Below are positions 1,027 through 39,006 of a stretch of DNA of 64,000 nt, piece by piece. This stretch comes from Saccharibacillus sacchari DSM 19268 (lineage in GTDB: Bacteria > Bacillota > Bacilli > Paenibacillales > Paenibacillaceae). The notes beneath the pieces are model-generated. The model saw only the letters and a program-made list of their open reading frames with translations. It did not search any database and was not told the origin of the DNA. How positions within the stretch are numbered: the first letter of the stretch is position 1; each line of letters begins with the position of its first letter. The stretch covers positions 3,881,307 through 3,945,306 of the forward strand of contig NZ_KK073875.1 in NCBI RefSeq assembly GCF_000585395.1, written 5' to 3'. The translations under genes were made by a program, and so were the position numbers.

Positions 1027-1165
1027 GCGCTGCGGGAGAAATTCGTTCAGGACGCTGTCTCACGCATAAAACCTTCGGTTTTACGCGTTCAAAGGCCAAC
1101 ATATCGCTGAATGTTACCGCAGGTTTTCTTCGAAAGCCTGTATTTCACTGAATTTCTCCCTTCGC
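1027..1165 (+). repeat. modular structured repeat, copy 1 (with 3' module)
   Basis: 139 bp. Starts GCGCTGCGGGAGAAATTC and ends GAATTTCTCCCTTCGCT, so its ends pair (GGGAGAAATTC with GAATTTCTCCC). Inside lie GCTGTCTC, a hairpin (CGCATAAAACC with GGTTTTACGCG around a TTC loop), TTCAAAGGC, and then an optional 3' module with two short hairpins (the second is CAGG...CCTG around TTTTCTTCGAAA). Six more copies of the family occur in the window. It sits between the 3' end of the merR-type gene and the narG promoter region. Confidence 0.85.
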
Positions 1166-1250
1166 TTGGCTCGCTGTTCTATCAATTTAATAATGCTAAA
1201 CTTCACAAAACCGGTTATACAACTTGCCTATTAGGTCAAGTTTTCGTTCG

Positions 1251-1432
1251 TTCTTGCGAATAAGCAAGAATTTAATGAGGGTTTTCGCTATTTGCGATGA
1301 TTGTTGCTAAAAAGCAGAAATTATTGGCCTAAACGGCTGATTTGGGGAGATGAGCGCGATGATTGTTGCTTATACGCAGGAATTGACTCGTTTTTCATGT
1401 TAATCGGCTTAAAATGTTGCTTTTTAGCAAGA
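1251..1432. repeat. four iterated short palindromes TTGC-N6-GCA
   Basis: Units with TTGC at 1254, 1304, 1366 and 1417 follow TTGCNNNNNNGCARGAA: TTGCGAATAAGCAAGAA, TTGCTAAAAAGCAGAAA, TTGCTTATACGCAGGAA, TTGCTTTTTAGCAAGAA. The middle bases differ and the arms are kept. Units two and three also share the 14-mer GCGATGATTGTTGC. Spacing is 50, 62 and 51 bp. This fills the non-coding gap between structured repeat copy 1 and the end of the merR-type gene; I see no gene there. Confidence 0.6.
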
Positions 1433-1443
1433 ATCGGAGTCGA

Positions 1444-1878
1444 TCACTCGAAGTCTGCATGTTCCGCTTGCATGTCTGACTTCGATTGCGTTTTTGATTT
1501 CGCAGCGGATTCGGAGCGTTCCATGTTTCGGAAGAATTCAATCTTATAATCGATCTTGTCGAGGGAGTCTTGGAGTTCTTTCATTTGTTCGACGACTTTT
1601 TCGCGGTAGGTTTCCATGAATTCGCGTCTTGCGGTGGCGCTGGAGGTTTGGCCGTTTTTGGGTATATTGAACAATTTGATTTCTTGTACGCTTAAGCCCA
1701 ATTTACGAAAATAGGTGATGACCTGGAACCAGGCGATATCGGATGCGGAGTAGATACGGTAACCGTTTGCGTCGCGCTGGATGCCGTCGATGAGTCCTTC
1801 TTGCTCGTAATAGCGCAGCGTATGTACGCTGAGCCCCGTCTCTGCTGCGACTTGTTTGCTTGAGAATGTAGTTTCCAT
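1444..1878 (-). CDS. MerR family transcriptional regulator
   Basis: 144-residue regulator. Residues 1-70 form the MerR winged helix: SSKQVAAETGLSVHTLRYYEQEGLI is the family's N-terminal signature, with GYRIYSASDIAWFQVI following. Residues from about 85 form the dimerising coiled coil, and the last 20 are polar. No cysteine cluster for a metal is seen, so it belongs with the aldehyde/stress-type MerR proteins rather than metal sensors. I chose the ATG at 1878 because the MerR fold begins there; a longer reading frame upstream would run into the promoter. It is transcribed divergently from an SDR/epimerase gene, and the 19-bp-spaced promoter between them (1908-1938) is the expected target, so the protein probably controls its neighbour and perhaps itself. 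Confidence 0.9.
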   Translation of the reverse strand: METTFSSKQVAAETGLSVHTLRYYEQEGLIDGIQRDANGYRIYSASDIAWFQVITYFRKLGLSVQEIKLFNIPKNGQTSSATARREFMETYREKVVEQMKELQDSLDKIDYKIEFFRNMERSESAAKSKTQSKSDMQAEHADFE

Positions 1879-1907
1879 GCCCGCATCATAGCACGAAAAA
1901 TAAACTC

Positions 1908-1938
1908 TTGCTATAGAGTTCACTTTATAGTTTAGGCT
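1908..1938 (+). promoter_or_regulatory. MerR-type promoter with 19-bp spacer and operator dyad
   Basis: -35 TTGCTA at 1908-1913 and -10 TAGGCT at 1933-1938 are 19 bp apart, the lengthened spacing typical of MerR-activated promoters. The spacer lies in the near-perfect dyad CTATAGAGT-TC-ACTTTATAG (one mismatch, 1911-1930). It points at the SDR gene that starts at 1981. Confidence 0.75.
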
Positions 1939-1980
1939 GTGTTTGTAGCAATCAAATCAACCGGGCTGGAGGCGTCATTT

Positions 1981-2862
1981 ATGAAAGTATTTGTAACGGG
2001 AGCAACAGGTTTTGTCGGAACCGCGGTCGTGCGGGACTTGTTGGAGGCCGGACACGAAGTCGTAGGACTTGCGCGTTCGGGCAAAGGCGAAGAAGCGTTA
2101 AAAGCGGCGGGAGCCGAGGTCTTGCGCGGTTCGCTCAAAGATTTGGACAGCTTGCGCCGCGGAGCGGAGCAGTCGGACGGCGTCATTCATTTGGCGTACA
2201 TTCATGACTTTTCGGACCGCGAAGCGTCTGAAAAGGCCGACCGCCAAGCCACCGAAGCGATCGGCGAAGCGTTAAAAGGTACCGGCAAACCATTCGTGCT
2301 GACGTCAGGAATGCTCATGATGCGGCAAGACGTCGTTAATACAGAAAACGACCTGGCGGCCGGAACCGGACGCTATGCCGAAGTCGCGGTCGATACATTG
2401 GCGGAAAAAGGCATCCGTTCTTCAGTAGTCCGACTCTCTCCAACCGTTCACGGTGAACATGATTACGGATTTGTTCGCGCCTTGGTACAAATCGCGCAAC
2501 AAAAAGGCTTTTCCGCTTACACGGGCGACGGTTCCAACCATTGGCCCGCCGTGCATCGTTCGGACGCGGCACGCCTGTTCCGCCTGGCCGTCGAATCCAC
2601 CCCGGCCGGTTCGCGCCTTCACGGCGTAGCCGAAGAAGGCATCCCCTTCCTTTCGATTGCCGAAGCGATCGGACGCCATCTGAATCTCCCCGTCCGTTCG
2701 ATCTCCGCCGACCAAGCCGCGTCTCATTTCGGCTGGCTGAACTTCGCCGCATCCGCCAATTGCCAAGCCTCCAGCGCCCAAACCCAACAACTTCTCAACT
2801 GGCACCCTGAGCACCCGGACCTTCTGTCCGACCTCGAAGCAGGCTATTATTTTACGGATTAA
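1981..2862 (+). CDS. SDR family NAD(P)-dependent epimerase/dehydratase-like oxidoreductase
   Basis: 293 residues. The N-terminus MKVFVTGATGFVG is the Rossmann GxxGxxG motif of extended short-chain dehydrogenases; VIHLAYIHDFSD and the RLSPTVHGEHDYGF stretch continue the atypical SDR (NAD-dependent epimerase) fold. The usual YxxxK is replaced by a GRYAEVAVD region, so a classical catalytic lysine is not evident. Cytoplasmic; substrate unknown. The ATG at 1981 has GGAGG 9 nt upstream and the fold starts there. It is preceded by a MerR-type promoter, so expression is probably inducible through the divergent MerR regulator. Such pairs are often induced by electrophiles, but nothing here proves that. 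Confidence 0.85.
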   Translation: MKVFVTGATGFVGTAVVRDLLEAGHEVVGLARSGKGEEALKAAGAEVLRGSLKDLDSLRRGAEQSDGVIHLAYIHDFSDREASEKADRQATEAIGEALKGTGKPFVLTSGMLMMRQDVVNTENDLAAGTGRYAEVAVDTLAEKGIRSSVVRLSPTVHGEHDYGFVRALVQIAQQKGFSAYTGDGSNHWPAVHRSDAARLFRLAVESTPAGSRLHGVAEEGIPFLSIAEAIGRHLNLPVRSISADQAASHFGWLNFAASANCQASSAQTQQLLNWHPEHPDLLSDLEAGYYFTD

Positions 2863-2966
2863 AAAACGCCCTAAAAGGTCTTAAAAAGTACTGTAAAGTA
2901 CTATATAGATACCAGCCATCGTCCATAAAAAGTCGATGGCCTCCATTCCCTCAAATTCCCCACAAA

Positions 2967-3003
2967 AAAACGTTCGCAAAAGTTGTTTCTTTTGCGAACG
3001 TTC
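2967..3003 (-). terminator. terminator of the two-component operon
   Basis: Read on the minus strand, a 14-bp stem (AACGTTCGCAAAAG with its complement around a 6-nt loop) is followed by a run of seven T. It lies about 100 nt past the end of the YesN-type gene. Confidence 0.75.
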
Positions 3004-3006
3004 ACC

Positions 3007-3062
3007 TTGTCTAGAAATGCCAACGTAGCTGGTTTCCCCCGCCTACGTAACTTTCTAGACAA
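3007..3062. repeat. nested hairpin in the 3' region of the two-component operon
   Basis: Outer arms TTGTCTAGAAA and TTTCTAGACAA enclose inner arms ACGTAG and CTACGT, with an unpaired GC-rich core between. There is no T-run, so it is not a simple terminator. It sits between the stop codon at 3105 and the terminator at 2967-3003, so it would be in the transcript. Confidence 0.5.
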
Positions 3063-3104
3063 CCTCGAACTTTTGCAAAAGAAAACTTCATTTTGCAGAC
3101 TTTT

Positions 3105-3854
3105 TCACCTCCTCATCTCCGAAGGCGACTTATCAAAATAAGCATGAAAATGCGTATAAAAATACCCCAGATTCGAATACCCGACCGAATGCGCGATGCT
3201 GGCAATTTTATCGTCCGTCGACAAGATCCGTTCGCGCGCCTTCAGCATCCGGTAGGCCATCACATATTCCGAGAATTTGATTTTGGTTTCTTTCAAAAAA
3301 ATCTGCCCCAGATACGTCCCGTTCATGCGGAACTGCTCGGCGACCATTTTCAGCGTGATATTTTGCTCATATTCCGTTTTAACGGTCAATAAAATATGAT
3401 TCGTGAGTTTGGACAAGCTATCATATCGCACGCCCAGCACGGGGTCCAAATTAACATCGCTCGTCCCTTCCAACGTTCCGTGCAGGTCTTCGACGATGAT
3501 TTTTTCCACGACCTCTTGCAATTTAGAGCGATTGACGGGCTTGAGCAGATAGTCCTTCACGCCGCAGCGGATCGCTTCCCTGGCGTATTCGAACTCGTTG
3601 TACCCGCTCATGATGATGTATTTGGTCGGCAATCCGAGTCCGTTTAGCTTGCTGATCGCTTCATATCCGCGGTCTTTGCCGATGCAGATGTCGAAGATCG
3701 CGATGTCCGGGTAAATGGCGACGGCTTTCGAGATCGCATCGTCCGCCGTCTCGCTGGTCTCGATGCAGCCGAATCCGTACTTTTCCCAGTCCAGCGTTCG
3801 CTTCATGCCTTCCAAAATTTGCGGTTCGTCATCCACAATCAGAAGTTTGTACAT
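3105..3854 (-). CDS. yesN: YesN-type response regulator with AraC DNA-binding domain
   Basis: 249 residues. Receiver domain 1-120 starts MYKLLIVDDEPQ, with phosphoacceptor D55 in IAIFDICIG and the conserved lysine in KDYLLKPVN. The C-terminal 100 residues carry two AraC helix-turn-helix units (ITLKMVAEQFRMNGTYLGQIF; KIASIAHSVGYSNLGYFYTHF) ending in the usual SPSEMRR. It acts in the cytoplasm as an activator of nearby sugar genes in this family. The ATG at 3854 has GGGAG 9 nt upstream; an upstream TTG in frame is unlikely. The gene overlaps the end of the kinase gene by 26 nt, so the two are translationally coupled. Together with the upstream ABC genes the arrangement suggests control of an oligosaccharide uptake system. 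Confidence 0.93.
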   Translation of the reverse strand: MYKLLIVDDEPQILEGMKRTLDWEKYGFGCIETSETADDAISKAVAIYPDIAIFDICIGKDRGYEAISKLNGLGLPTKYIIMSGYNEFEYAREAIRCGVKDYLLKPVNRSKLQEVVEKIIVEDLHGTLEGTSDVNLDPVLGVRYDSLSKLTNHILLTVKTEYEQNITLKMVAEQFRMNGTYLGQIFLKETKIKFSEYVMAYRMLKARERILSTDDKIASIAHSVGYSNLGYFYTHFHAYFDKSPSEMRR

Positions 3855-5607
3855 GGATCGCAACTCCCTTCGGAATCATCACGGATACTTTCACGCCAGC
3901 TTCTTCATTATTCTCGATATGCAGCGCAAATCCTTCTCCATAGAAAAAATGCAGCCGAGTGCTTACGTTATGCAGCCCAATGCTGGTCACGGGAGCGTCG
4001 TCTTTGCGGGACAAGCTGCTGCGAATATGCGCCAAGCGTTCTTCCGCGATCCATTTTCCGTTGTCCACGATCTCCAGGTTGAAATGAGTCTCCGACTCCC
4101 AACCGTTAACCATCAGCAGATTGAACGCATTGCTTGAATTGAATCCATGGACAAAAAAGTTCTCGGCAAGCGGCTGCATCCAGAACTTGACGGTAGGCAG
4201 CGCCGACAGCGTCTCATCCACATTGAACTGATAATAGAAACGATCCGGATATTTGAATTCCATGATTTTCAGATACTCGCGCAGCAAGGAAAGCTCTTTG
4301 TCGATCGTGATGATATTTTCGTGCTTCACCATATCCCGGTATAACGCGCCAAGCGTCGCAATCGCGTCCGAAGTCTCCATATCGCGATTCACCAGAGCTT
4401 TGGAGCGGATCGCTTCCAGCGTATTATAAAGGAAATGAGGGTTAATCTGATTTTGTAGCGCTTTCATTTCTGTCTCCTGCTGTTTGAGTTTCAATAAGTA
4501 TTCGGTTCGGATATGTTTGTCCAACTGTCGGACCATATCTTCCAGCTCTCTGGCGATCATCCCGTATTCATTGCGTCGATATCGGGCCGGGGTGTCGGGA
4601 GTGAAATCTGCTGTTTTGACACGGCCGATCGAATGAATAATATGATGGAGAAAGCGTGCATCGTCTCGCAGATTATAGACAATAAGCGTCAAGACGCTAA
4701 TCATCGCCAGCAATACAATCAGGAAAACAGATAAAAGCGTCCCCCATCGTTCGCGAATCATCGTGCCCAGATCCACCCAACTAACGAAGCTGTAATCGAA
4801 TTTGGTTGAGGTAAAAGTGGTAAAAAAGATGCCGTCAAGCCCACCGGTAGACAGATATCCTTGTGCCCGTCCATCTGCCAATGCGCGCGCAACCCGTTCG
4901 TTGTTGCCTTCCTCGGTTGAAAAGTCGGGATAGACTTCGCCGTTCATTCCAATCAGCGCCGAACGACTAATGCCTTCATTAATAGAGCTGCCAAATACTC
5001 GATCGCTGCCCACCACAAAACGCAGTTCCCCTAGCTTTCGCGAAATTTCATTGGGGTCCGACAAACTTTCCCGATAAATAAAACCTCGATTGATCGAAGC
5101 GCCGAACATCTCGTCTTCGTCGGGTACCTGGAATTTGAAGCGGGTATTTCCGTTTTTGTCGAAGCGAAGCACGTTGGCTTTCCCCTCGGCGTGCAGGCTG
5201 ACTTGAATGATATCTCCCTGCCCTCCGCCATATAAAAAGGACTCCACATCATCCGGAAAAGAGATCATCGGCTGTTCGACGCGACTGGCTTCAAGTCTCG
5301 CGGAAAAGTATTGTTCAGCGCTGCTGCCTAAAAAATACCGTACATCGGCCATTAGCCCGCTGTTCAGGTACACGCGCTGCATATAAGCTTCAATCCGATC
5401 GGCGTTATGTTGCAGCGTATTCTCGACTCCGGCAAAGGTGCTTGCGGCTTGATTGCGAGCATTATCGACCCATTGAACAAAAAGGATGGCGCAGGTCAGC
5501 AAGCCTATAGCCATTCCGATGGATACGACGAATATCGCATACGCTATGAATTTGCTTCGATAAATCTTGATTTGCAAAAAGGATAAGGCAGGCGCCTCCT
5601 TTGCCAT
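3829..5607 (-). CDS. yesM: YesM-type sensor histidine kinase
   Basis: 592 residues, membrane sensor. First membrane segment at about 20-42, extracytoplasmic sensing domain to about 280, second membrane segment about 288-312 (LLSVFLIVLLAMISVLTL), HAMP-like linker, then the His_kinase domain with QNQINPHFLYNTLEAIR (phosphoacceptor His near 391) and a GHKL ATPase with FWMQPLAENFFVHGF and SIGLHNVSTRL. It should phosphorylate the YesN-type partner that follows and overlaps it. The start is odd: the ATG at 5607 has no ribosome site upstream, a TACAAT -10-like box lies 7 nt before it, and AAAGGAGG occurs just inside the frame. A leaderless start or a later non-ATG start is possible. Confidence 0.92.
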   Translation of the reverse strand: MAKEAPALSFLQIKIYRSKFIAYAIFVVSIGMAIGLLTCAILFVQWVDNARNQAASTFAGVENTLQHNADRIEAYMQRVYLNSGLMADVRYFLGSSAEQYFSARLEASRVEQPMISFPDDVESFLYGGGQGDIIQVSLHAEGKANVLRFDKNGNTRFKFQVPDEDEMFGASINRGFIYRESLSDPNEISRKLGELRFVVGSDRVFGSSINEGISRSALIGMNGEVYPDFSTEEGNNERVARALADGRAQGYLSTGGLDGIFFTTFTSTKFDYSFVSWVDLGTMIRERWGTLLSVFLIVLLAMISVLTLIVYNLRDDARFLHHIIHSIGRVKTADFTPDTPARYRRNEYGMIARELEDMVRQLDKHIRTEYLLKLKQQETEMKALQNQINPHFLYNTLEAIRSKALVNRDMETSDAIATLGALYRDMVKHENIITIDKELSLLREYLKIMEFKYPDRFYYQFNVDETLSALPTVKFWMQPLAENFFVHGFNSSNAFNLLMVNGWESETHFNLEIVDNGKWIAEERLAHIRSSLSRKDDAPVTSIGLHNVSTRLHFFYGEGFALHIENNEEAGVKVSVMIPKGVAIHVQTSDCG

Positions 5608-5724
5608 ATTTGTTATTGTAGCACCTGATGCGGAAAGGATGTGCAGCAGAAAAACCCGAACGGCGATTGGATTCCGTTTGGGTTCCGCTGAGGGGAAAAT
5701 CCTGTTCGTTGGGGAAGGTTGAGG

Positions 5725-5819
5725 GCTGCGGGAGAAATTCGTTCAAGCCGCTGTCTCACGCATAAAACCTTCGGTTTTACGCGTTCAAAGGCGTCTTTCA
5801 CTGAATTTCTCCCTCCGCT
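5725..5819 (+). repeat. modular structured repeat, copy 2 (minimal form)
   Basis: 95 bp, the shortest copy: outer stem, GCTGTCTC, the same internal hairpin as copy 1 (TAAAACC-TTC-GGTTTTA), TTCAAAGGCGTCTTTCACTGAATTTCTCCCTCCGC-type 3' end without any module. It lies 47 nt past the stop of the solute-binding protein gene and 118 nt before the kinase start. Confidence 0.85.
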
Positions 5820-5866
5820 CCTCGCTTCGCTCAACTTAAATCTTTTCCTATACGCTTCACTTATTT

Positions 5867-7357: not shown

Positions 7358-7439
7358 AAACCTTACCCCCTCTTTCGTGTTTGGTAGGCTTGCTTATATG
7401 GTTCGATGACCGATAACGCCTTATTGCGCGATGCCGGGA

Positions 7440-8369: not shown

Positions 8370-8382
8370 AGACTCGCCTCCT

Positions 8383-9318: not shown

Positions 9319-9369
9319 GTTCACCCCGTCCCCCGTGTAGTGGATTTGATGTGCTGTATTCAGGATATA

Positions 9370-9383
9370 AGAAACCGCTTACA
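9370..9383 (-). promoter_or_regulatory. cre site (CcpA binding) upstream of the sugar ABC operon
   Basis: Minus-strand TGTAAGCGGTTTCT matches the cre consensus TGWAANCGNTNWCW at every defined position. It lies 52 bp before the lplB start, close to where the promoter must be, so glucose repression by CcpA is likely. Confidence 0.75.
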
Positions 9384-9518
9384 TTTGAATAGATTAGAAA
9401 CGTTAGACTTCAGGCGGGAAACGTTAGATCAAAGGGAGAAAAATTCGACCTTTGATCTAACGTCGGGGAATTTACCTTAAAGTCCTGTTCGCGGGAGCTC
9501 GCGGGGGCGCTGCGGGGC

Positions 9519-9656
9519 ACTGCGGGAGAAATTCGTTCGAGCCGCTGTCTCAAGCAGAAAGCCTTCGGCTTTCCGCTTTCAAAGGCCAACATATTGCTGA
9601 ATGTTACCGCAGGTTTTCTTCGAAAACCTGTATTTCACTGAATTTCTCCCTCCGCT
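9519..9656 (+). repeat. modular structured repeat, copy 3 (with 3' module)
   Basis: 138 bp. Same architecture as copy 1, but the internal hairpin is AAGCAGAAAGCC paired with GGCTTTCCGCTT: both arms have changed together. The 3' module (AACAT...ATGTT and CAGG...CCTG hairpins) is nearly identical to that of copy 1. It lies between the terminator of the mod operon and the promoter of the sugar ABC operon. Confidence 0.85.
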
Positions 9657-9790
9657 CTCGCTCGTCCGTGAAGGACTTCAAGGCAATTCGACGACGTTGG
9701 CAAGGTCTCATTTTGGGGGAAGAGAGTAAAAAGAAAAAGCTCTGGTTTCTTAAAGTGCGCTCAAAAGGAGTGCTTGAGAGAATGGCAAAG

Positions 9791-11924: not shown

Positions 11925-11934
11925 GATGTCGCGA

Positions 11935-15614: not shown

Positions 15615-16040
15615 ATGGGAGGACCCTCACTACGCCAACACCATGCCCATCATGCGATTCATGAAGGAGCACTAAGCGGCGCGATTGATAAAACGGAAGA
15701 ACTGGAAGAACTGATTCAGACAGAAGGTATAGAAAATGCGCGTCAAGCTGCGGATCAGCTGCTCGGTTATTGGGTGACGCGGGTGCTCAGCCATGCGGAT
15801 GCGGAAGAAGAAGGGTTTTATGAAGAAATGGCCGGAGAAGATCCCGATCTGAAACTGGCTGTTGTAAAACTGACGCGCGATCACGATATTTTGCGCATGA
15901 TCGTCGCGGATCTTGTGACCCAGCTGCCCAAGAGCGGCCCGACTCCAGAAATGATGCGTTTGTTCTACTCATTGATTACGGTAAATGCGATTCACAGTCG
16001 TGAAGAAGAACGGCTATTGTTCGAGGAGCGCTCGAAATGA
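15615..16040 (+). CDS. hemerythrin domain protein
   Basis: 141 residues. Histidine/acid pattern of a bacterial hemerythrin: [14 protein letters not shown] near the start, [14 protein letters not shown] near residue 60, TRDHDILR near 90 and [15 protein letters not shown] near the end. Four helices with a di-iron site; family members bind oxygen or NO, or store iron, in the cytoplasm. The ATG at 15615 has AGGTGGAG 7 nt upstream and the fold begins there; upstream codons in frame are non-coding in character. A TATACT -10 box lies about 70 nt upstream. It is divergent from ywiC and overlaps the next gene by 4 nt (ATGA), so it is made together with the SEC-C protein. Its setting fits a role in nitrosative or oxygen stress. 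Confidence 0.85.
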
Positions 16041-17941
16041 ATCTGCTCTCTCCTGTCGTTTCCGTAGGACGAAATGATCCCTGTCCGTGCGGCAGCGGAT
16101 TCAAATATAAGAAATGCTGCGCGCAGCGCGACGAAGTTTCTCGCAGCCTGGCAACCCGGCAAGCGGCGCTGGAATCGGTACTCCGGCAATTCTTCACGGC
16201 TCATCCCCGCCCGTCCGAGCAGAAGGCATTATCGGCTTGGAAAAATGAATTGGCCCCTCGTCTTAAAGCCGCTTATGGTGCGGAAAAAACGGACGCGGTC
16301 GTCGGGGATACGTTTTTCTTCAGCGAAGCTGTAGACATCTGGAATGCGTTTGTACGCGAGCAATCGGCAGATCCCGCCCATGCGGCAATTGCCGATGCTT
16401 TAAAAAGCTGGGTCGATCCGCAATTCGCGGTGCTGCGTGTTCTGGGACAAGACTCGATGTCAGCAGGAACGACCACAAGTATGAGCGTTCGCGCCGTGGA
16501 AGTATTGAGCGGTGAAGCCCTTAAGTTGCGTACAGATGATTCCTTCCGTCCTGCCGCCGGTACAATCGTCCTCGGTTTTTGGCTTCCGGGGGCCGGTCTT
16601 GAAGCTCCGAAAGTTGCGTTGAACAGTCTTGTGTTGGTCGAAGAACCTGACGATGATGCGGTGCTGCGTTTGGAGCAACTAAGGCGCGACCCGAAGGCTC
16701 TTGATCTTAAGACCTTTTACCGTTCGAATATCGCTTCGGTGTACGAAGCCTTCGGCGAAGCGATAGCGTCAAACGATTCGTCTTCTTCCGAAGAAGAGCT
16801 GCACGAATCGATAACGGAAGCGATTCGCAGGCTGGACGCATTCCTGATCCGACACGACGTGAAGCATGATCGTCTGATGGATACCACCTTTCGATTCCTG
16901 AAACGCAAACGCCACAAACCGGATGCCGGTACAGCGGCGGCAGCGGCGATTCGTTTTGCCCTGGATCAAGACTGGCTGACGAATGACTGGGATGCAGAAC
17001 GGCTGACGGAAAAATTCGGCGCAAACCCTGAAGAAACCGTACGTTTGGCACAAGAAATGGCGAATTTCGAGCAAAAAACTTCGGCTTACCGCGAAGAAGA
17101 AGAAATCATCGGTTTCCGGGTCGGAACCGATCCGATGCTCGACGAGTTCCGCCAATGGCGACTCTACATGCACATTAAGGATTTGGACATTCAAGGCGAA
17201 GCTGCGCTGCGCCGTCAGATGGACTACTTCTCGGGAATTCCCTACTCTCCTGCCACGGCCGGCGAGGAAGCGCAGCTGCGTGCCTATGAAGCTTATCTGG
17301 CAAAAGAAACTGAATTACGTTTTAAAAAAATGTCCGAGGCTCGTCAACTGGACCCCGATAATGCAGATGCGTTGCTGTTGGCTGCCGGATTCGAGACCGA
17401 TGTTGTTGAACGCCAAGTTCTGCTGCAACACGCGGAGCAATCGGCTCTTCAATCGTTCGAGGCGGATATCCAACCGGTCTGGCTGCATATTCCCAACCGC
17501 CCTTATTTGCGCGCTTTGATGCAAGCAGCTCTGGAAGATTGGGAGCAAGCCCGATGGAATGAAGCGTTTGAACGGTTCTACCGGCTGCTTCGCTTGAACC
17601 CTGCCGATCATCAGGGAGCACGCTACCCTGCGTTATCCGCATTAATTGCCCGAGGCGATCTTCAAGCTGCCCAAGGATTGTTGGCCCATTATGCCGAGGG
17701 TGCCGGGGACAATGCGATCTATCGCTGGTTCGACTGGGCGATTCATTATCGACAGGATCGCTTGGAAAAAGCTGCCGAGGAACTTTATCAAACGGCAGTC
17801 GAAGCTAATCCTTATGTAGAAAAGCGGGTTCGCAATCGGCCTGAAGCCGAGCCTTATCCGCAATCCGCGGTGATGACGCCAAGATCGCCGGAGGAAGCTG
17901 AATTCATATGGACGATGATTCGTCCGGGGCTTTTTCATTAA
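16037..17941 (+). CDS. SEC-C motif protein with TPR-like C-terminus
   Basis: 634 residues. Near residue 12, [19 protein letters not shown] is a full SEC-C zinc-binding motif (Cys-x-Cys-x8-Cys-Cys), as at the C-terminus of SecA, but here at the N-terminus. The middle is acidic and helical; from about residue 440 the repeated helix pairs ([55 protein letters not shown]) are TPR-like. SEC-C domains bind zinc and often act as protein-interaction adapters. The start overlaps the hemerythrin stop by 4 nt, so expression is coupled. Function not known; a chaperone or adapter role is a guess. Confidence 0.88.
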
Positions 17942-17970
17942 GAATGTCTTGTTTGGCTGGGCGTGCTGAG

Positions 17971-18083
17971 GCGCTGCGGGAGAAATTCGGTCAAGACGCT
18001 GTCTCACTCGGAAACATGGATGAAGATTCGAGAAGTAGCTTTCCGCGTTCAAAGGCGTCTTGACCTGAATTTCTCCCTCCGCT
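17971..18083 (+). repeat. modular structured repeat, copy 4 (minimal form, long stem)
   Basis: 113 bp. Here the outer stem is longest: GAAATTC-GGTCAAGACGC at the left pairs with GCGTCTTGACC-TGAATTTC at the right. The internal hairpin is CGGAAA...TTTCCG with a long loop. No modules. It starts 30 nt past the SEC-C gene stop and lies between two convergent genes. Confidence 0.85.
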
Positions 18084-18174
18084 TAGCATGCTCGCTCAAA
18101 AAAGATTCTTAAAGAAAAGAGCTTGGGGTTAGGTTTTAGGGTAAGGCAAAGATAGATCACATAGATAAAGAAAA

Positions 18175-18267: not shown

Positions 18268-18723
18268 TTACACGCCGTAGCGTACTTCGTACTCGCAGCG
18301 GTCGTCGCCGGAGACGTTGCATTTGACTTCGCGGACGCGGGCGGCGCGGCCGGTGACGCGGTGCAGGGCGCCTTCGAGGATTGCGCCTTCCAGGTCGCAG
18401 ACCATTTTGCCTTCGAGCACGGGGAGTCCTTCGCAGAAGCAGTCGTCTACGGCGATGCGCATGCCCTTCTCGTCTTGATGCACGATGCTTGGGATTCCGA
18501 TTTTCAGTTCTTCGAACATCCTCAGGATGTCTTCAACCGAGGATACGGGCAAAGATTCGCCGATCTTGCGGCCGATGGTTGCGGTTGTGCTTTTTCCGCC
18601 CATCGGGAGAGCTTGATACATGCCGATCAAGCGAATGGTGCGAAATAATTCCAACGGGACCTGATCCCCCAGTTTATCGCGTGCGATGGATTTCATATCT
18701 GCAAATTCGAATGTGTCTTTCAT
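18268..18723 (-). CDS. V4R domain protein
   Basis: 151 residues. The C-terminal part (GKMVCDLEGAILEGALHRVTG, VREVKCNVSGDDRCEYEVRY) matches the V4R (4-vinyl reductase) small-molecule-binding fold, with conserved cysteines in DDCFCEG, KMVCD, KCNV and DRCEYE. V4R proteins bind small hydrophobic ligands or metals and are often regulators. The ATG at 18723 has GGTGG about 8 nt upstream. It stands alone, divergent from the ferredoxin-NADP reductase gene across a 230-bp spacer that carries a Fur box. Function unknown. Confidence 0.8.
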   Translation of the reverse strand: MKDTFEFADMKSIARDKLGDQVPLELFRTIRLIGMYQALPMGGKSTTATIGRKIGESLPVSSVEDILRMFEELKIGIPSIVHQDEKGMRIAVDDCFCEGLPVLEGKMVCDLEGAILEGALHRVTGRAARVREVKCNVSGDDRCEYEVRYGV

Positions 18724-30405: not shown

Positions 30406-30482
30406 AGTCGATCTTATCGATCCATTCTTGCTTCTCGCGTTCCCGCACGGTCTCGCTCACGCTTTTACGACGGTTCTTCCGA

Positions 30483-31274: not shown

Positions 31275-31319
31275 ATTCGACTTCCTTTCGATACAGCGCT
31301 CAGGCAACTGAACGGCACG

Positions 31320-32789: not shown

Positions 32790-33148
32790 CGTAGTTCCTC
32801 CCAGTACATATGTCCATTACGTAACAATTTTCGTTCCTATAATAGTAACATTTAGTTCACTCCCTGCACCAGCCCGGCTTTTTAGAATCTTTTCAAATTC
32901 TAATGAAATTCCGGGCGATTTTTGCCGTTTTTTACATCCCGTCAACGACACCCCCTTATTAATCAGGCAAAAGGCCTGTTTTATTGAAATTAGCGCTCAT
33001 TAAAATGGTTGTTTCGTTATGTATGACAGCAATATGTAAGACCTTGAGCCTACCTCCATCATAAGGCTTTCTGCGTTCTTTTCAAAGCCGAAGAGCCGGA
33101 ATATGCGCATCCTTCTTGATAGACGCACCAATTCCGGCTTTGGTTGGA
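32790..33148. other. gene-free spacer between the unknown gene and the fucosidase gene
   Basis: This 359-bp stretch holds the promoter region of the 489-residue gene, and at 33094-33142 an inverted pair (AGCCGGAAT...AATTCCGGCT, with GCGC...GCGT inside) beyond the fucosidase stop, possibly its 3' hairpin; it has no T-run. No gene is supported. Confidence 0.4.
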
Positions 33149-34594
33149 TTACGGGCGAAGGAAGTTTACGAACAATCGAGACAACGTCGGAAATGCCCGA
33201 TATTGCTTCATGCCGACCCGAATTTGCGAAGTCTGTATAGGATTAAAGCGTAATACTCTAAGATGTCCTACAGTGCCACCTTCCGCAACAGATTGCCATT
33301 CGCCGTCAGTTTCCGCGTCGCTTCCTACTATTTTTGCAAACACTTCAAAAGCTTCAATCCGTTGTCCCGACGCCAGATGTTCTCCCAATCCCAACGTATC
33401 GATCCACTGCGGCTGTTCCAACGTTAATTCAATCCAGGGCTCAATGTCACTCTTTTCCGGTTGCCAGAATGAAGAGGCTTCGCCGGAGTGACTCGATAAG
33501 ACGGCTTCCACGGAAACCTGGCCGCTAGACGTTCGTAAGGTCGCCCCCTGCATCAACGAAGTATCTTGAAGCTGTGAGATTCTCCGCCCCAGGTCCTCCA
33601 GCGCCAAACGATCCGGCCTAGCGATACGTCCCTGCGCATCGGGCGGTATATTGAGCAGGAACGTCGCATTGCCTCCAACCGCATTCAAATAAATCCCGAA
33701 CAACTCTTCGCCGCTTCGAACCTGGTCGTCTTCTTCCTGATGGTAGAACCAACCCGGACGAATCGAAGTGTTCACCTCGGCTGGGTACCAGACCCATTCG
33801 CCGTCATACGCCGCAATGGCCTTCCTGCTGCCCAAGTCTTCTTCCATCGAATTGAAAGAACGCGAGAACTCCCCATCGTCGGCCTGCTGCGACTTCTCGG
33901 CCGTCTTTTCGGCATCGCGCAGCGGCGCGGGCACGACGCTCCATTCCTGCTTCCTCGTCTGCCCCGCCTCGTTGCCGACCCAGCGAATATCCGGCCCGCA
34001 TACGCTGATCACGCAACCCGGCTGCAAACGGCGAATCACTTCATAGTAACGCTCCCAGTCATAAAATTGCTTTTTTCCGTTGGGACCTTCTCCGTTCGCT
34101 CCATCTAGCCAGACGCAGCCGATCTCGCCGTAATTCGTTAGCAGCTCCGTCAGCTGATCGATATAAAAGTCGTCGTAAGCTTCGCCTTCTCCATAGCTGC
34201 TCTCCGTCCGATCCCAAGGAGAAAGGTAGACCCCAAACTTCAATCCGTATTTCTGACAGGCCCCCGATACTTCCCGCACCAGATCGCCTTTGCCGTCGCG
34301 CCAAGGAGTGTAGGCAACGGTATGTTTCGAGTATTCGCTCGGCCACAGACAGAATCCGTCATGATGCTTACAAGTCAAGATCACCGCCCGCATACCGGAA
34401 CGTGCAAGAATCGCTATCCATTCCTCCGCATCGAGCGACTGCGGGTCGAAGATCGATAGGTCCTCATGGCCTTCGCCCCATTCGCGCCCGGTCATCGTAT
34501 TCATTCCGAAATGAATAAATCCATAGAACTCCAACCGCTGCCAAGCGAGTTGTCTTGCCGATGGAGCCACTTTCGCGATGTCATGCAAGTCCAT
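33149..34594 (-). CDS. alpha-L-fucosidase, GH29-like
   Basis: 481 residues. GH29 features: YGFIHFGMNTMTGREWG near 24, ILTCKHHDGFCLWPSEYSKHTV near 75, KFGVYLSPWDRTE near 120, and CVWLDGANG near 160 with the aspartate expected to be the nucleophile. The C-terminal part is a beta domain (FWQPEKSDIEPWIELTLEQPQWIDTLGLGEH) like a coagulation factor F5/8 module. It should remove terminal alpha-L-fucose from oligosaccharides. No signal peptide, so it acts inside the cell on imported sugars. The ATG at 34594 has AAGGAAGGG upstream. It is divergent from the GH30-type gene, only 135 bp apart, so the two probably share a regulator. Confidence 0.9.
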   Translation of the reverse strand: MDLHDIAKVAPSARQLAWQRLEFYGFIHFGMNTMTGREWGEGHEDLSIFDPQSLDAEEWIAILARSGMRAVILTCKHHDGFCLWPSEYSKHTVAYTPWRDGKGDLVREVSGACQKYGLKFGVYLSPWDRTESSYGEGEAYDDFYIDQLTELLTNYGEIGCVWLDGANGEGPNGKKQFYDWERYYEVIRRLQPGCVISVCGPDIRWVGNEAGQTRKQEWSVVPAPLRDAEKTAEKSQQADDGEFSRSFNSMEEDLGSRKAIAAYDGEWVWYPAEVNTSIRPGWFYHQEEDDQVRSGEELFGIYLNAVGGNATFLLNIPPDAQGRIARPDRLALEDLGRRISQLQDTSLMQGATLRTSSGQVSVEAVLSSHSGEASSFWQPEKSDIEPWIELTLEQPQWIDTLGLGEHLASGQRIEAFEVFAKIVGSDAETDGEWQSVAEGGTVGHLRVLRFNPIQTSQIRVGMKQYRAFPTLSRLFVNFLRP

Positions 34595-34729
34595 TACGGC
34601 ACTTCCCTTCCTTTAAAAAGATTCACTCCAAAAGCATAACCGATCTGCCCGAAAGATGCGCGTTTTCAGAGCGAGACGAACGATTCCCGGTTATACTATA
34701 GAAGAATTCGAATCTGAAGGAGGCGAATC

Positions 34730-36175
34730 ATGGGTAACGAACAAGCCGAAAATGCTGCCGTATCCTCGATCGAGGTCGATCTGTCCGTCAAGCATCAGAC
34801 TTTTGAAGGTTGGGGAACGTCTCTTGCCTGGTGGGCCAACGTTCTGGGCGGTTGGAGCAAGGCGCGCAGACGCGAGATTGTGGAAAAGCTGTATGCTGCG
34901 GAATCCGGAATCGGGATGAACATCGCTCGTTACAATATCGGAGGAACCAAAGATGCGGACGATCCTTTTTTGGACTACGGCAAAGCGATTTTATCTTTTC
35001 AAAACGAAGACGGAAGCTGGGACTGGTCGCGAGACGCGAACCAGCGGGAGATCATGCGGTTGATTCGCGATATGACCGATGAACCGATCTTTGAAGCCTT
35101 TTCCAACTGTCCGCCCTGGTGGATGACTCTTGCGTACGATCCGCAGCATCCGAACGGCGCGCAAGGCGCGACGACGGGAGGCATCGACGGCGGAGATAAC
35201 TTAAAACCCGGCTCGGAACGCGAATTTGCTCGTTATTTAGTCGAGGTTGTCCGGCATTTTCGAGATGAGCATGGGCTTACGTTCCGTACGCTGGCTCCGT
35301 TCAACGAACCCGTCGCAGGCTGGTGGAAGCATCGGATTACGAAGCAAGAAGGCGCGCAAATTCTGCCCGGGCAGCAGCAAATCGTGATCCGTGAGGCTGT
35401 TGAAGCTTTGCGGGAAGCCGGGCTTTCGGATACATCGGTCAGCGCATCGGACGAATCCTTTGTCGAGATGGCGCTGAATACATGGAATGCTTTCTCGCCT
35501 GAGATAAAAGCGCTGATTCCGCAAGTGAACACCCACACGTACAATGATTCAGGCTATGACCCAGAAAATTTCATGAAGACGGTTACATCTGATGGGAAAA
35601 AGCTTTGGATGTCTGAAGTTGGCTTTGAAAATGGAGCTCACCCGACAGATGATCCTCATTCGATGATCGGCGCAATACGGTTGGTTCAAGGCATCACCAA
35701 GGATTTGAAAATCATGCGTTCTGAAGCCTGGGTATACTGGCAAGCGGTTGAAAGCAATGTCAGCACGTGGGGATTGATCTTTGCTCCGTTTGAGCATAAT
35801 GAATCAGAGTCTTACTTCATGTACAAGCAATATTATGCACTCGGTAATTACAGTACATTCATTCGTCCGGGAAGCATTATTGTTCATAACGACGGCGAAA
35901 AATCGCTTGCGGCGTTTGACCCTGCTGCAAATCGTCTGACGATCGTAACGTACAACGACGGGGATGCGGAAACGGTAAGCTACTCTTATCAATTGCAAGG
36001 ACTTGCTTCGTTCGGCAATGGCGCACCGCTTCAAGCACGCATATACCGGACGAGCGCAGAAGAAAATCTGGCGGAGCTGGAGTCCATAACGCTGGAAAAG
36101 GGAAGCTTCACGGCTGAGGCTATTCCGGGATCTGTGACCACGTATGTAATCGATCAGGTGGCGGCAACAACATAA
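34730..36175 (+). CDS. GH30 family glycosidase (endo-beta-1,6-galactanase-like)
   Basis: 481 residues. GH30 signature: FEGWGTSLAWWANVLGGWSK near 25, GIGMNIARYNIGG near 60, FSNCPPWWMT near 125, acid/base Glu in LAPFNEPVAGWW near 188, and nucleophile Glu in KLWMSEVGFENG near 288. Ends in a beta domain of the GH30 type. It is closest to GH30 subfamily 5 (beta-1,6-galactanase-like), by feel rather than by search. No signal peptide, so a cytoplasmic role. The ATG at 34730 has GAAGGAGG 6 nt upstream. Divergent from the GH29 gene; both handle plant-type oligosaccharides. A terminator follows. Confidence 0.85.
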   Translation: MGNEQAENAAVSSIEVDLSVKHQTFEGWGTSLAWWANVLGGWSKARRREIVEKLYAAESGIGMNIARYNIGGTKDADDPFLDYGKAILSFQNEDGSWDWSRDANQREIMRLIRDMTDEPIFEAFSNCPPWWMTLAYDPQHPNGAQGATTGGIDGGDNLKPGSEREFARYLVEVVRHFRDEHGLTFRTLAPFNEPVAGWWKHRITKQEGAQILPGQQQIVIREAVEALREAGLSDTSVSASDESFVEMALNTWNAFSPEIKALIPQVNTHTYNDSGYDPENFMKTVTSDGKKLWMSEVGFENGAHPTDDPHSMIGAIRLVQGITKDLKIMRSEAWVYWQAVESNVSTWGLIFAPFEHNESESYFMYKQYYALGNYSTFIRPGSIIVHNDGEKSLAAFDPAANRLTIVTYNDGDAETVSYSYQLQGLASFGNGAPLQARIYRTSAEENLAELESITLEKGSFTAEAIPGSVTTYVIDQVAATT

Positions 36176-36177
36176 CC

Positions 36178-36222
36178 AAAAAGACCTTATCCGCACCCTA
36201 CGTGTCGGAAAAGGTCTTTATT
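36178..36222 (+). terminator. terminator after the GH30 gene
   Basis: AAAGACCTT...TCCG paired with CGGA...AAGGTCTTT; T-rich tail. Starts 3 nt past the stop. Confidence 0.75.
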
Positions 36223-36297
36223 TATTGCGATTCACGGGTCATCAAACCTCGCTTTGTTCCTTGGGGATTTGATTTGCTTACGAGTCGAACCGTTAAC

Positions 36298-36702
36298 TTA
36301 TTGTCCGGCGAAAAAGGCTTCGTTACCCGAATAGAAGTATCCGGTCGTATCGCTGAATACCACATAGTCGATGCAATTCAGGGGTACGACGGTACGTTGT
36401 CCATATTCGACGCTCAATACGATATGGTCGCTACCCGCCGCTTCAAGTCGTCCTTCAACCGAAGTTGACGTAAATCCGATATTCATTCCGGGTACGATGT
36501 AAAAAGTGCCTGTGCGTCCCAGATTATTTTGCAACGTAGAGATTACGTTGGGTTGTTCATAATTGGTTTGCGGAATGGACGCTTCGATCATCGGCGATCC
36601 GGATCTGGCCAACGGATTACGGAACCCTGCGCCGCCTCTTCCTGCCATGCCGTTCATGCCGCTGCTAATCCGATAGGTCACGGGTGAATAGGAATATTCC
36701 AT
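36298..36702 (-). CDS. gerQ: spore coat protein GerQ
   Basis: 134 residues. The second half, LGRTGTFYIVPGMNIGFTSTSVEGRLEAAGSDHIVLSVEYGQRTVVPLNCIDYVVF, is the GerQ (YwdL) core, where the protein is laid on the spore coat and cross-linked by transglutaminase in B. subtilis; it is needed for normal CwlJ function in germination. The N-terminus is low complexity (Gly, Ser, Met). The ATG at 36702 has GAGGAGGG 6 nt upstream. Shows the organism forms endospores. The sigma-K type promoter expected could not be placed. Confidence 0.9.
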   Translation of the reverse strand: MEYSYSPVTYRISSGMNGMAGRGGAGFRNPLARSGSPMIEASIPQTNYEQPNVISTLQNNLGRTGTFYIVPGMNIGFTSTSVEGRLEAAGSDHIVLSVEYGQRTVVPLNCIDYVVFSDTTGYFYSGNEAFFAGQ

Positions 36703-36911
36703 ATGAATCCCTCCTCGTTTTTGCGCGGATGTCCGCGAGTGGATAAAAATATGTTCACGTCCGCCCGGCTGTATCGTCCATTTAGAGAAGGTGAAATTGC
36801 GATTAGAGTACAATTCATGCTTTATATCCTTACTATTACCCGAGAGACGCAAAGGGCAAACCTTATTTTTACATCGAATATGGCAAAAAAGTGAAGAAGG
36901 AGCTAGAAATG

Positions 36912-37069
36912 GCGCTGCGGGAGAAATTACAAGCATAGGCTTCCGAAGTGCATTTCTTCGAAATGCTTCACAATCCGCTGTCTCGCCTGAGAATTTTAGA
37001 GTTGACCATAGGTGCAACTCTAAAATTCTCAGGCTTAAAGGCGTCTTTCACTGAATTACTCCCTCCGCT
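36912..37069 (+). repeat. modular structured repeat, copy 5 (with 5' module)
   Basis: 158 bp. Between the outer stem and GCTGTCTC it carries the 5' module ACAAGCATAGGCTTCCGAAG and GTGCATTTC-TTC-GAAATGC hairpins. The internal hairpin is a perfect 20-bp stem, GCCTGAGAATTTTAGAGTTG with its complement, quite unlike that of other copies. Lies between the SDR stop and the gerQ promoter region. Confidence 0.85.
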
Positions 37070-37122
37070 AGTTGTAGCGGCAGGAGGAATAAAAGAACAA
37101 AAGAATAAAACATAAAACGATT

Positions 37123-37152
37123 AAAGGCCTGCGCAAGATGCGCAGGCCGCTT
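37123..37152 (-). terminator. probable terminator after the SDR gene
   Basis: GGCCTGCGCA paired with TGCGCAGGCC around a 4-nt loop; on the minus strand followed by TTTAAT, a weak T-run. Confidence 0.55.
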
Positions 37153-37175
37153 CGGTACGAAATGTTCATTCTTTA

Positions 37176-37922
37176 TTACTCGGCGTAAATCATTTTCCGC
37201 GTCATTCCGCCGTCCAGGACCAATTCGGCTCCGGTCAGGAAGGTGTTGTCGGGGTGCGTGATGTACAGGCAGGCTCGGGCGACGTCTTCCGGGGTGCCTA
37301 CTCTGCCTATCGGATGTTGCTCGTGATCCTCTTGGCGCAGCTTATCGTATTCCTTGGTTTCGATCCAGCCCGGGCTGATGCAGTTGACTTGAATGCCGTC
37401 TCCTCCCAGCGAAACGGCTAGCGAATGGGTCAAAGCAAGGATCGCTCCTTTGGATGCCGCATAGGCTTCGAAATTGGGTTCGGACATGTGGGCGCGCGTC
37501 GAACATAAATTTACGACGGAGCCTTTTCCGTGCTTGCGCATATGCAAAGCGGCTTCCCGGGTTGCGAGGAACGTGCCGCGGACATTCGTATTCATGACAT
37601 CGTCCCATTCTTTGACGGTTAACTCATATGGAGACTTCCAAATCCCGAAGCCCGCATTGTTAATCAGGATATCAATTTGTCCGAAGGCTTCGATCGTTTC
37701 TCGCATGAGCTGCGTAATATCCGATTCGTTGGAGACATCGCACGGAATGAAGATCGCTTCCCCGCCCGAATTGCGGATTTCCGCAGCTGCTGCGGCTCCT
37801 TCGGGTTCTTGCGTATCGGCGAGCACGACACGTGCTCCTTTTTCAGCATAACTTTTAGCGACAGCTTTTCCGATTCCTTGAGCGGCGCCGGTTACGATCA
37901 CCGTCATCGATTCAAAACTCAT
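37176..37922 (-). CDS. SDR family oxidoreductase
   Basis: 248 residues, classical short-chain dehydrogenase. Cofactor motif TVIVTGAAQGIGKAVA at about 7-22 and LINNAGFG near 88; catalytic Ser in VNLCSTRAH near 140 and YAASKGA as the YxxxK pair near 155; ISPGWIET and the C-terminal FLTGAELVLDGGMTRK complete the pattern. It resembles glucose or polyol dehydrogenases and 3-oxoacyl reductases. NAD(H) or NADP(H) choice not clear; ADTQEPEG with an acidic residue after beta-2 favours NAD. The ATG at 37922 has GGGAG 11 nt upstream. Confidence 0.9.
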   Translation of the reverse strand: MSFESMTVIVTGAAQGIGKAVAKSYAEKGARVVLADTQEPEGAAAAAEIRNSGGEAIFIPCDVSNESDITQLMRETIEAFGQIDILINNAGFGIWKSPYELTVKEWDDVMNTNVRGTFLATREAALHMRKHGKGSVVNLCSTRAHMSEPNFEAYAASKGAILALTHSLAVSLGGDGIQVNCISPGWIETKEYDKLRQEDHEQHPIGRVGTPEDVARACLYITHPDNTFLTGAELVLDGGMTRKMIYAE

Positions 37923-37993
37923 CTTCTTGTCAGCTCCCTTCCCATTCTCACTGCTTTATTATTACCCAAACGCCTTGCTGAAGGAAACCAAAG

Positions 37994-38028
37994 CAAAAAG
38001 TCCTTCGCGGGGTGAGGCGAAAGACTTA
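37994..38028 (-). terminator. terminator after the small cysteine-rich gene
   Basis: AGTCTTTCGCC-like arm paired with GCGAAGGACT; on the minus strand followed by five T. Confidence 0.7.
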
Positions 38029-38111
38029 ATGTCCGGCAAGCGGATTTATTATGTGATTAAATTCACTTAATAGGGTGCAAAATATGTCTTCTGCACATCC
38101 GGGTGTCGGCG

Positions 38112-38294
38112 TTACGCGTAGTACATGTTCAGCAGTTGATTCGTTTCTGCATTTTCGTTCTCTTCGTTATTCAGCAGTCCTTGTTCAGCCCAGCAAGCCA
38201 AGCATTGTTCTTCGGTCTCGCAGAGATGTGCGTCTTCGCAGTTATAGCAAAGGTTCAGGTAGTTACGAGTCAGTTGAGCAGTTGCGGTGGTCAT
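38112..38294 (-). CDS. 60-residue cysteine-rich protein, probably Fnr-controlled
   Basis: 60 residues. The core CYNCEDAHLCETEEQCLAC (16-34) has five cysteines in a mirror-like order, Cys-x2-Cys-x5-Cys-x5-Cys-x2-Cys, which suggests binding of a metal or an iron-sulfur cluster. No signal peptide. The C-terminus is Asn/Glu-rich. The ATG at 38294 has AGGAG 9 nt upstream; longer frames run back into an AT-rich promoter region. A perfect Fnr-type palindrome lies 100 bp upstream (38394-38421) and a terminator follows. I do not recognise the family. Confidence 0.75.
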   Translation of the reverse strand: MTTATAQLTRNYLNLCYNCEDAHLCETEEQCLACWAEQGLLNNEENENAETNQLLNMYYA

Positions 38295-38393
38295 GTGGAT
38301 CACTCCTCGATTTAATTTAAGTTTAGGGTTGTTTGAGTTGTCGTTTTGTTTTGTTGCATTCTTTATATTTAAAAAATAACAGATTTTTCGATT

Positions 38394-38421
38394 AGATAAT
38401 GTGATTTTTTTCACATTATCT
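38394..38421. promoter_or_regulatory. perfect Fnr/CRP-type palindrome
   Basis: AGATAATGTGA-TTTTTT-TCACATTATCT: 11-bp perfect arms containing TGTGA-N6-TCACA, the Bacillus Fnr consensus. On the minus strand a TATTTT box lies at 38378-38373, which places this site about 41.5 bp upstream of a start near 38366, as for Fnr-activated promoters. Confidence 0.75.
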
Positions 38422-38463
38422 GAAATAAATTAAACTTTTCTGTTCGTTGTGTGGCTGACGTGC

Positions 38464-38661
38464 GACGCTGCGGGAGAAATTACAAGCATAGGCTTCCGAA
38501 GTGCATTTCTTCGAAATGCTTCACAAGACGCTGTCTCACCCGGAAAGTTGAATTGGATTTGAATAAGGAATCTTTCCGGGTTCAAAGGCGTCAACATAAA
38601 ACTTAATGTTACCTCAGGTTTTCTTCGAAATCCTGTATTTCACTGAATTTCTCCCTCCGCT
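38464..38661 (+). repeat. modular structured repeat, copy 6 (with 5' and 3' modules)
   Basis: 198 bp, the most complete copy. 5' module as in copy 5, GACGCTGTCTC, hairpin ACCCGGAAAG...CTTTCCGGGT, TTCAAAGGCGTC, then the 3' module AACATaaaacttaATGTT and CAGGTTTTC-TTC-GAAATCCTG, then the outer stem. Just upstream of copy 7, in opposite orientation. Confidence 0.85.
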
Positions 38662-38785
38662 TCTCCTTCGCTTTTTTATAAAAAGATAAAGGCGAAAAGC
38701 ACAATAAATGCACTCATGCGATTTTACTGCATAAGTACACTTATTGTTCGAATTATTTTTTAAATAACATCGAAGTATTAGACAA

Positions 38786-38818
38786 AATAAAAAGGTTGTC
38801 CTTATTTAGGACAACCCC
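38786..38818 (-). terminator. terminator after the beta-propeller lipoprotein gene
   Basis: GGTTGTCCT paired with AGGACAACC; on the minus strand followed by five T. It lies after repeat copy 7, so the transcript would include that copy. Confidence 0.8.
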
Positions 38819-38854
38819 ACCCCCTAGAAAATCCCTTCCCGAAATGAAGCGTAC

Positions 38855-39006
38855 AGCGGAGGGGAAAATTCAGTTCAATACGCCTTTGAACTCGGAAAAC
38901 CTTCAACTTAAATTTCAATCTAGTTTTCCGAGTGAGACAGCGGATTGTGAAGCATTTCGAAGAAATGCACTTCGGAAGCCTATGCTTGTAATTTTCCCCG
39001 CAGCGC
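38855..39006 (-). repeat. modular structured repeat, copy 7 (with 5' module)
   Basis: 152 bp on the minus strand: GCGCTGCGGGGAAAATTACAAGC start, 5' module, CCGCTGTCTC, hairpin ACTCGGAAAA...TTTTCCGAGT, TTCAAAGGCGT, ends GAATTTTCCCCTCCGCT. The outer stem has changed on both sides (GGGGAAAATT with AATTTTCCCC instead of GGGAGAAATT with AATTTCTCCC), again keeping the pairing. It begins 35 nt past the lipoprotein stop. Confidence 0.85.

Follow-up and report, generated by a model that had tools for sequence, protein, structure and literature searches.

Intergenic repeats of Saccharibacillus sacchari and its relatives as a probable family of non-autonomous transposable elements targeting terminator hairpins

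Main finding

A stretch of 64,000 nt from Saccharibacillus sacchari DSM 19268 (contig NZ_KK073875.1, positions 3,881,307 to 3,945,306; hereafter the window) harbors seven related, structured repeats of modular build. We consider it likely that these repeats represent a non-autonomous palindromic transposable element, a superfamily of miniature inverted-repeat transposable elements (MITEs) of the Paenibacillaceae (the family of the host according to NCBI) and their relatives, with ends of the IS1182 type and with intrinsic terminator hairpins as targets. The evidence consists of terminal repeats that also occur in IS1182-family elements, of duplicated targets, and of sites that are empty in one species and filled in the other; it supports the small non-autonomous mobile element that was among the explanations offered in the original prediction. 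The copies measure roughly 160-280 nt. Their predicted anatomy, from the outside inwards, is a terminal repeat related to TCAGGYTGTCGAGAAAGT, long imperfect arms, and an asymmetric core (CGCTGT...AAAGGCG) around an apical hairpin, together with optional hairpin modules. Two types, I and II, were assigned by short text patterns; copy A12734 is classed as type II, with ends that look type I-like. The ends of type II, the type found in the window, appear mostly eroded, and its assignment to the element is proposed from the shared core and arms and from hairpin duplications at a few copies of this type.

Empty sites, target duplications and turnover

The host genome (G000) was compared with genome G015, taken to be S. 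endophyticus, with 699 kb of 0.8 Mb aligned at 90.3% identity. Of the 52 copies of S. sacchari, the relative shares 32 in the same orientation and 3 in the opposite one; 8 are absent from it, 7 lack anchors and 2 are at rearranged places. For the 50 copies of S. endophyticus the respective numbers are 33, 4, 10, 3 and 0. Empty sites in a related strain, which the original prediction had named as a check, thus exist between the two species, with the terminator present once in the empty and twice in the filled state. Four sites are clean: there is one terminator when the site is empty and a hairpin on both sides of the element when it is filled. In one comparison the empty site consists of the lone terminator GGGAGCGCTAAGCGCTCCTTTTTTT and the filled relative reads hairpin-element-hairpin, and a second such site occurs in the same comparison. 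The stretch CGATATGCCC..GGGCATATCG is likewise found once in the empty and twice in the filled site, and in a further case the duplication measures 16 bp and is located at the apex of a palindrome of 36 bp. A fifth site, A83129, has a terminator that diverged on the empty side. In our own reading of the 18 absent sites, five are insertions with hairpin duplication (B146518, B164672, B525401, B723552 and A83129), one is an insertion that lacks it (A625470), eight are core deletions or remnants (some of them uncertain), two contain another variant and two are unclassified (A12734 and B476068).

The duplications are also seen without a comparison genome. Direct repeats between the two flanks reach a score of at least 28 in 10 of 145 copies, against 0.3 expected from mismatched flanks. 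Thirteen duplications (score of at least 24) lie at the element junction and span 18-36 bp, and their length correlates with the span of the hairpin (0.60 on the left, 0.79 on the right). As judged by eye, the loops of the duplicated hairpins match in direct orientation for A12734, L118, L126, L107 and L013.

A mechanism of the following kind would account for this arrangement. An IS1182-type transposase would act in trans on the repeat and recognize the terminator in its folded DNA form, a hairpin or a cruciform; on both strands the element ends would be joined at the hairpin foot, and the whole hairpin would then be duplicated as gaps are filled, so that both neighboring genes would keep a terminator. 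After insertion, copies would stay at fixed sites, where they may swap or lose modules, lose the core, or appear inverted. Recombination between related hairpin modules is suggested by a single site (A383210/B395277), at which the relative lost the stretch between two such modules. At only 13 of the 32 shared sites does the similarity of the copies exceed the 95th percentile for randomly paired copies of the same type.

Terminal repeats and IS1182-family partners

Of 60 type I ends, 43 carry the terminal motif TCGAGAAAGT with no more than 2 mismatches, compared to 3 in an equal number of control windows. The same motif, TGTCGAGAAA, terminates IS1182-family elements of the host genome and of the genus. 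Two insertion sequences (IS) of the host, at loci L174 and L176, carry TGTCGAGAAAC, and the DDE domain PF13751 is encoded in 4 of 16 genomes of the genus. The IS of L172-L174 and L176 are approximately 1.57 kb in length with ends TCAGNNTGTCGAGAAAC. In L174, the second open reading frame (ORF) matches NF033551 (IS1182) with 287.7 bits (cut-off 270) and the first with 212 bits; the transposase frame is therefore split over two ORFs. L177 represents another IS1182 type, with 460 bits to NF033551 in one ORF. Most of these IS are flanked by a duplicated terminator hairpin: in L173, L174, L176 and L177 this hairpin is immediately followed by the terminal repeat. The sole core matches among the eight IS loci are those of L174 and L175, located outside the IS at about 70-110 bp from its end.

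Several observations weigh against the interpretation as a terminator-targeting element with IS1182-type ends. Type II ends match the terminal motif in only 18 of 232 cases, versus 6 in equal control windows, and many type II copies lie few bases past a stop codon with a left end that is not recognizable. Most copies have no recognizable duplication, only 3 of the 13 junction duplications are classed as type II, and A625470 is one clean insertion without a duplicated hairpin. Judged by eye, the flanks of the IS in L172 are unlike each other, and L178 has an 8-bp repeat instead. On the side of the transposase, S. endophyticus lacks a PF13751 match at E<=1e-8, and IS1182 does not track the element: NF033551 (E<=1e-20) is found in 9 of 20 core-lacking and in 8 of 20 core-rich genomes. 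The presence of the element and that of IS1182 show no association across these 40 chosen genomes, for which a transient invasion could account. Moreover IS1272, a member of the same IS family, partly or wholly removes its target hairpin and makes no duplication, according to the portions of PMC4923244 and PMC5678879 covered. We also note that near stop codons two type II copies (L008 at 1488, plus strand; L006 at 1414, minus strand) show complementarity across the copy just outside the conserved ends, in copy-specific letters that in places include the stop codon.

Position relative to genes

Gene positions were obtained with a simple gene finder, not from annotation, and the Saccharibacillus counts mix two related species with orthologous copies included. 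A gene 3' end adjoins the repeat in 48 of 49 matches (0.4 Mb per species; two copies counted twice at locus boundaries). A larger set, which overlaps with this one, comprises 139 copies; 12 of them are untyped and were pooled with type II in the tests on stop proximity and G.U pairs. Type I copies of this set are found in convergent (10), sense tandem (9), antisense tandem (7) and divergent (0) gaps, type II copies in 47, 18, 32 and 4, and untyped copies in 6, 4, 2 and 0 such gaps, respectively. In 0.8 Mb per species, 6 of 89 gaps with an element are divergent, compared to 158 of 682 gaps of at least 100 nt without one (Fisher p=1.6e-4), and 35 of the 89 are convergent, compared to 81 of the 682. 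The repeats therefore favor gene 3' ends and avoid divergent gaps, though not wholly: divergent copies amount to 4 of 139 in the larger Saccharibacillus set and to 1 of 55 and 4 of 35 in other genera. Type I copies within 90 nt of a stop codon are co-oriented with the gene in 18 cases and opposed to it in 7.

Neighboring copies follow a further rule. Within 700 nt of each other in Saccharibacillus, the 3' ends face in 27 of 27 pairs, which include at least 3 orthologous duplicates, two boundary-split copies being set aside; copies 6 and 7 of the window (38459-39012) are one of these pairs. The same holds for 11 of 11 inverted pairs from the order-wide sample (L233, L237, L242, L243, L245, L247, L257, L283, L296, L317 and L319, with L233, L237 and L245 from Saccharibacillus), in which 5' ends never face. 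Direct tandems of the core occur in three other genomes (L275 at 1501, 1706 and 1911; L249; L267) with a spacing of about 200-360 bp.

Structure in DNA or in RNA

The pairing of the repeat copies exceeds chance. In an alignment of 14 copies (the seven of the window and seven others), 93.6% of 420 cells are paired, both sides have changed in 11 of 30 pairs, and none of 500 shuffles reaches the observed pairing. Covarying stems alongside conserved unpaired bases would also be expected of a structured RNA family in 3' untranslated regions (a terminator, a stability element or a processed small RNA) that has been spread and kept for that function. Within Saccharibacillus such a reading finds further support. 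Copies not typed I and located at most 60 nt from a stop codon are co-oriented with the gene in 62 cases and opposed in 3. Mispairs in the stems, counted as G.U to A.C, amount to 48:29 in inner and 185:114 in outer stems, and the outer excess is most pronounced among sense copies that are not typed I; near stops the outer ratio is 84:38 for such sense copies and 23:24 for antisense ones (Fisher p=0.02). The two order-wide sets look different. In 56 copies, a few of them from Saccharibacillus, the ratios are 21:16 (inner) and 41:52 (outer), and in 41 copies they are 11:15 and 39:57. The Saccharibacillus counts, moreover, are not independent, because they include orthologous copies of two species and fixed family differences, and 32 of 101 type II copies are antisense to both neighbors. 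As terminal repeats, together with duplications of whole hairpins, are signs of transposition, and as pairing shows no strand bias across the order, we regard an RNA family as unlikely. The processed RNA family of the original prediction accordingly agrees with the orientation near stops and with the G.U excess inside one genus, and disagrees with the order-wide counts. The lack of an order-wide G.U excess favors DNA structure over RNA, and the mispair pattern fits pairing that is maintained at the level of DNA or transferred from one arm to the other by template switching. An RNA-only reading was rejected on the same counts, and no RNA function is claimed. Exaptation of type II copies as terminators is a possibility; their right flanks are more T-rich, significantly so in the convergent group alone (p=0.001).

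Pairing that is conserved across the order without strand bias, in many copies that mostly adjoin gene ends, could likewise belong to a palindrome that is retained for chromosome structure or as a putative site of protein binding, comparable to REP/BIME sequences. Insertion with target duplication is difficult to reconcile with such a role, as is the turnover of site content, given that no more than 13 of the 32 shared sites exceed the 95th percentile. We consider this explanation very improbable.

An order-wide core and a second type of ends

Weak matches of the first covariance model of the repeats, whose E-values are rough, contain the same core in other genera, and several of those in genome G051 add the terminal repeat and a duplicated hairpin. 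A separate core model was built from 13 sequences (both sides changed in 9 of 17 pairs; 0 of 500 shuffles as high). With this model (E<=1e-4) the core, CGCTGT and AAAGGCG around a hairpin, is found in 341 of 392 genomes and in 37 of 49 genera of the order. In a class-wide sample of 398 genomes, 38 match at E<=1e-5, all 38 within the order, to which some of the other 360 may belong as well. Six genomes contain 16 to 106 core copies each (150 candidates scored per genome). Among 71 order-wide locus matches, 54 are unique with the exact motif, 50 of them outside Saccharibacillus, and in those 50 the inner segment measures 46-54 nt.

Hairpin duplications beside TGTCGAGAAA-like ends recur in several other genera of the order. 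A score of at least 28 is reached by 10 of 56 copies in the first order-wide set (0.84 expected; 5 of those rows come from three tandem arrays), and a direct score of at least 28 by 7 of 41 copies in the second (0.03 expected; nearly all from one genome). G051 provides exact hairpin duplications of 18 and 21 bp beside TGTCGAGAAACCC. A second type of repeat (110-206 nt), with ends GAGCGTGTTCAAAAAG or close variants, occurs in G051 and G137. Of 20 such repeats examined (L344-L363), 10 contain the core by motif search. Identical flanks of 3 bases were seen by eye in 7 of the 20, with 0.3 expected (L345, L353, L354, L359, L360, L362 and L363), and L353, L354 and L359 among these contain the core. 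A full-length partner of the GAGCGTGTTCAAAAAG repeats was not found, as no inverted pair 1-2.5 kb apart is present among the places listed for four genomes; a plasmid collection queried with one G051 element gave no match.

We tentatively suggest, at somewhat less than even confidence, that the core (CGCTGT, a hairpin of 46-54 nt, AAAGGCG, then ACGCTNNCGCTC) represents a DNA module of ancient origin that extends across the order and has a function of its own. An unknown protein would recognize the folded, strand-asymmetric hairpin, and the module would travel in repeats with unrelated ends, either of the IS1182 type with duplication of a whole terminator or of the GAGCGTGTTCAAAAAG type with a duplication of about 3 bp. 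If so, the core would either exploit several transposition systems as a parasite or serve them as a tool, and natural proof of a target-site duplication defined by structure would be provided by the duplicated terminators.

Relation to known systems

BOX repeats are modular. REP/BIME sequences, associated with RAYT transposases, are extragenic palindromes of high copy number and alternating orientations; the present repeats differ from them in their length, in their terminal repeats and in their long target duplications. BOX, RUP and SPRITE, which PMC10969869 (in the part covered) names as repeats of Streptococcus pneumoniae, are similar in that they are structured intergenic repeats in many copies, and differ in the host; here they are set apart by description, not by sequence. 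With bacterial MITEs in general, as described in the covered part of PMC10969869, the repeats share short length, terminal inverted repeats, intergenic location, a stable hairpin and many copies. They appear to differ from them in a target duplication that consists of a whole terminator hairpin of variable length, and in an asymmetric core common to repeats with different ends across an order.

The closest comparison is with IS1272 and TnSha1, described by Furi et al. 2016 (PMC4923244). As reported in the covered portions of PMC4923244 and PMC5678879, IS1272 (IS1182 family) targets hairpins, often terminators, without a sequence consensus, and insertions of IS1272 and TnSha1 lie immediately downstream of genes. 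An IS1182-family transposase, a hairpin or terminator as target, and sites just past genes are thus common to these systems and the one proposed here. Unlike with IS1272, the whole hairpin is duplicated here, and most copies are short, structured and putatively non-coding; stem-loop replacement of the IS1272 type, with deletion of the hairpin and no duplication, was rejected on this ground. Duplication of a whole stem-loop was drawn by Wan et al. 2017 as the hypothetical pathway b of IS1272, with no example in the portion of PMC5678879 covered, and the filled sites described above look like examples of this outcome. An abundant element of this kind would be able to reach safe sites by copying the terminator that it enters, with a duplication length that follows hairpin length, and the natural before-and-after sites make structure-guided transposition testable.

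The copies of the window

All seven copies of the window are of type II and match the first covariance model:

1021..1174, plus strand: copy 1, 3' module at about 1097-1142; a copy is also present at the corresponding S. endophyticus site
5717..5827, plus strand: copy 2, no module; site shared with S. endophyticus, which has another central hairpin
9511..9664, plus strand: copy 3, 3' module; S. endophyticus has the arms without the core
17965..18091, plus strand: copy 4, no module
36906..37077, plus strand: copy 5, 5' module at about 36929-36973; left half absent from S. endophyticus
38459..38669, plus strand: copy 6, both the 5' and the 3' module; first of two inverted copies with facing 3' ends
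38847..39012, minus strand: copy 7, 5' module; second of the inverted pair with copy 6

Re-reading of the window and the covariance model both place seven related, modular, structured copies where the original prediction had located them. Its assignment of the modules is correct as well, with the 5' hairpin module in copies 5, 6 and 7, the 3' module in copies 1, 3 and 6, and neither in copies 2 and 4. The covariance model (default filters, E<=1) reports no eighth copy in the window. The overall plan given for the ends holds, with small differences in three copies: copy 1 ends in TTCGCT, copy 5 ends in AATTACTCCC and also has TTAAAGGC, and in copy 7 the pair GGGGAAAATT/AATTTTCCCC represents a compensated change. 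The original description also fell short of the full length of the element, whose arms extend about 33 nt on the left and 30 nt on the right past the limits of the covariance model. Copy 4 starts 24 nt past the stop of a predicted gene (16037-17941, plus strand) and is followed by a convergent predicted gene (18268-18723, minus strand); copy 7 lies 29 nt past the stop of a predicted gene at 39041-40330 (minus strand).

Copy number and spread

The "seven-copy family" of the original prediction is a window-sized view of a family that is spread over the genome. The host contains at least 150 copies by the first covariance model, with all 150 scored candidates at E<=1.8e-11. An exact two-box pattern has 57 matches in the genome versus 0 for the reversed control, and a left-end pattern with up to 2 mismatches has 378 matches on both strands, right ends included, versus 9 for its reversed control. 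Extrapolation from the 52 copies in 0.8 Mb gives about 390 per genome, and the host probably contains several hundred copies in all. Further copies, on which the original prediction depended, are hence abundant in the host and in related genomes. In a scan of named genomes, from which records very near the host genome were possibly excluded, all 50 matching stretches belong to Saccharibacillus, 44 of them to S. endophyticus.

The repeats also have no Rfam match, an outcome by which the original prediction would have been refuted. At the gathering cut-off, the window and 12 order-wide loci yield a T-box and tRNAs only, with the repeats unmatched, and at E<=10 two stretches yield sub-threshold matches only, mostly to microRNA hairpins. 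No description of the repeats was found in the literature searched, with subscription journals mostly outside the search. A very common part of the genomes of the order is thus without a name in Rfam or in that literature. The sole gathering match within the window is a T-box leader at 50859-51123 (minus strand). Elsewhere in the host genome, at L010, three copies lie within 1.2 kb (4325470, 4325702 and 4326571), two of them scoring identically, which suggests local duplication.

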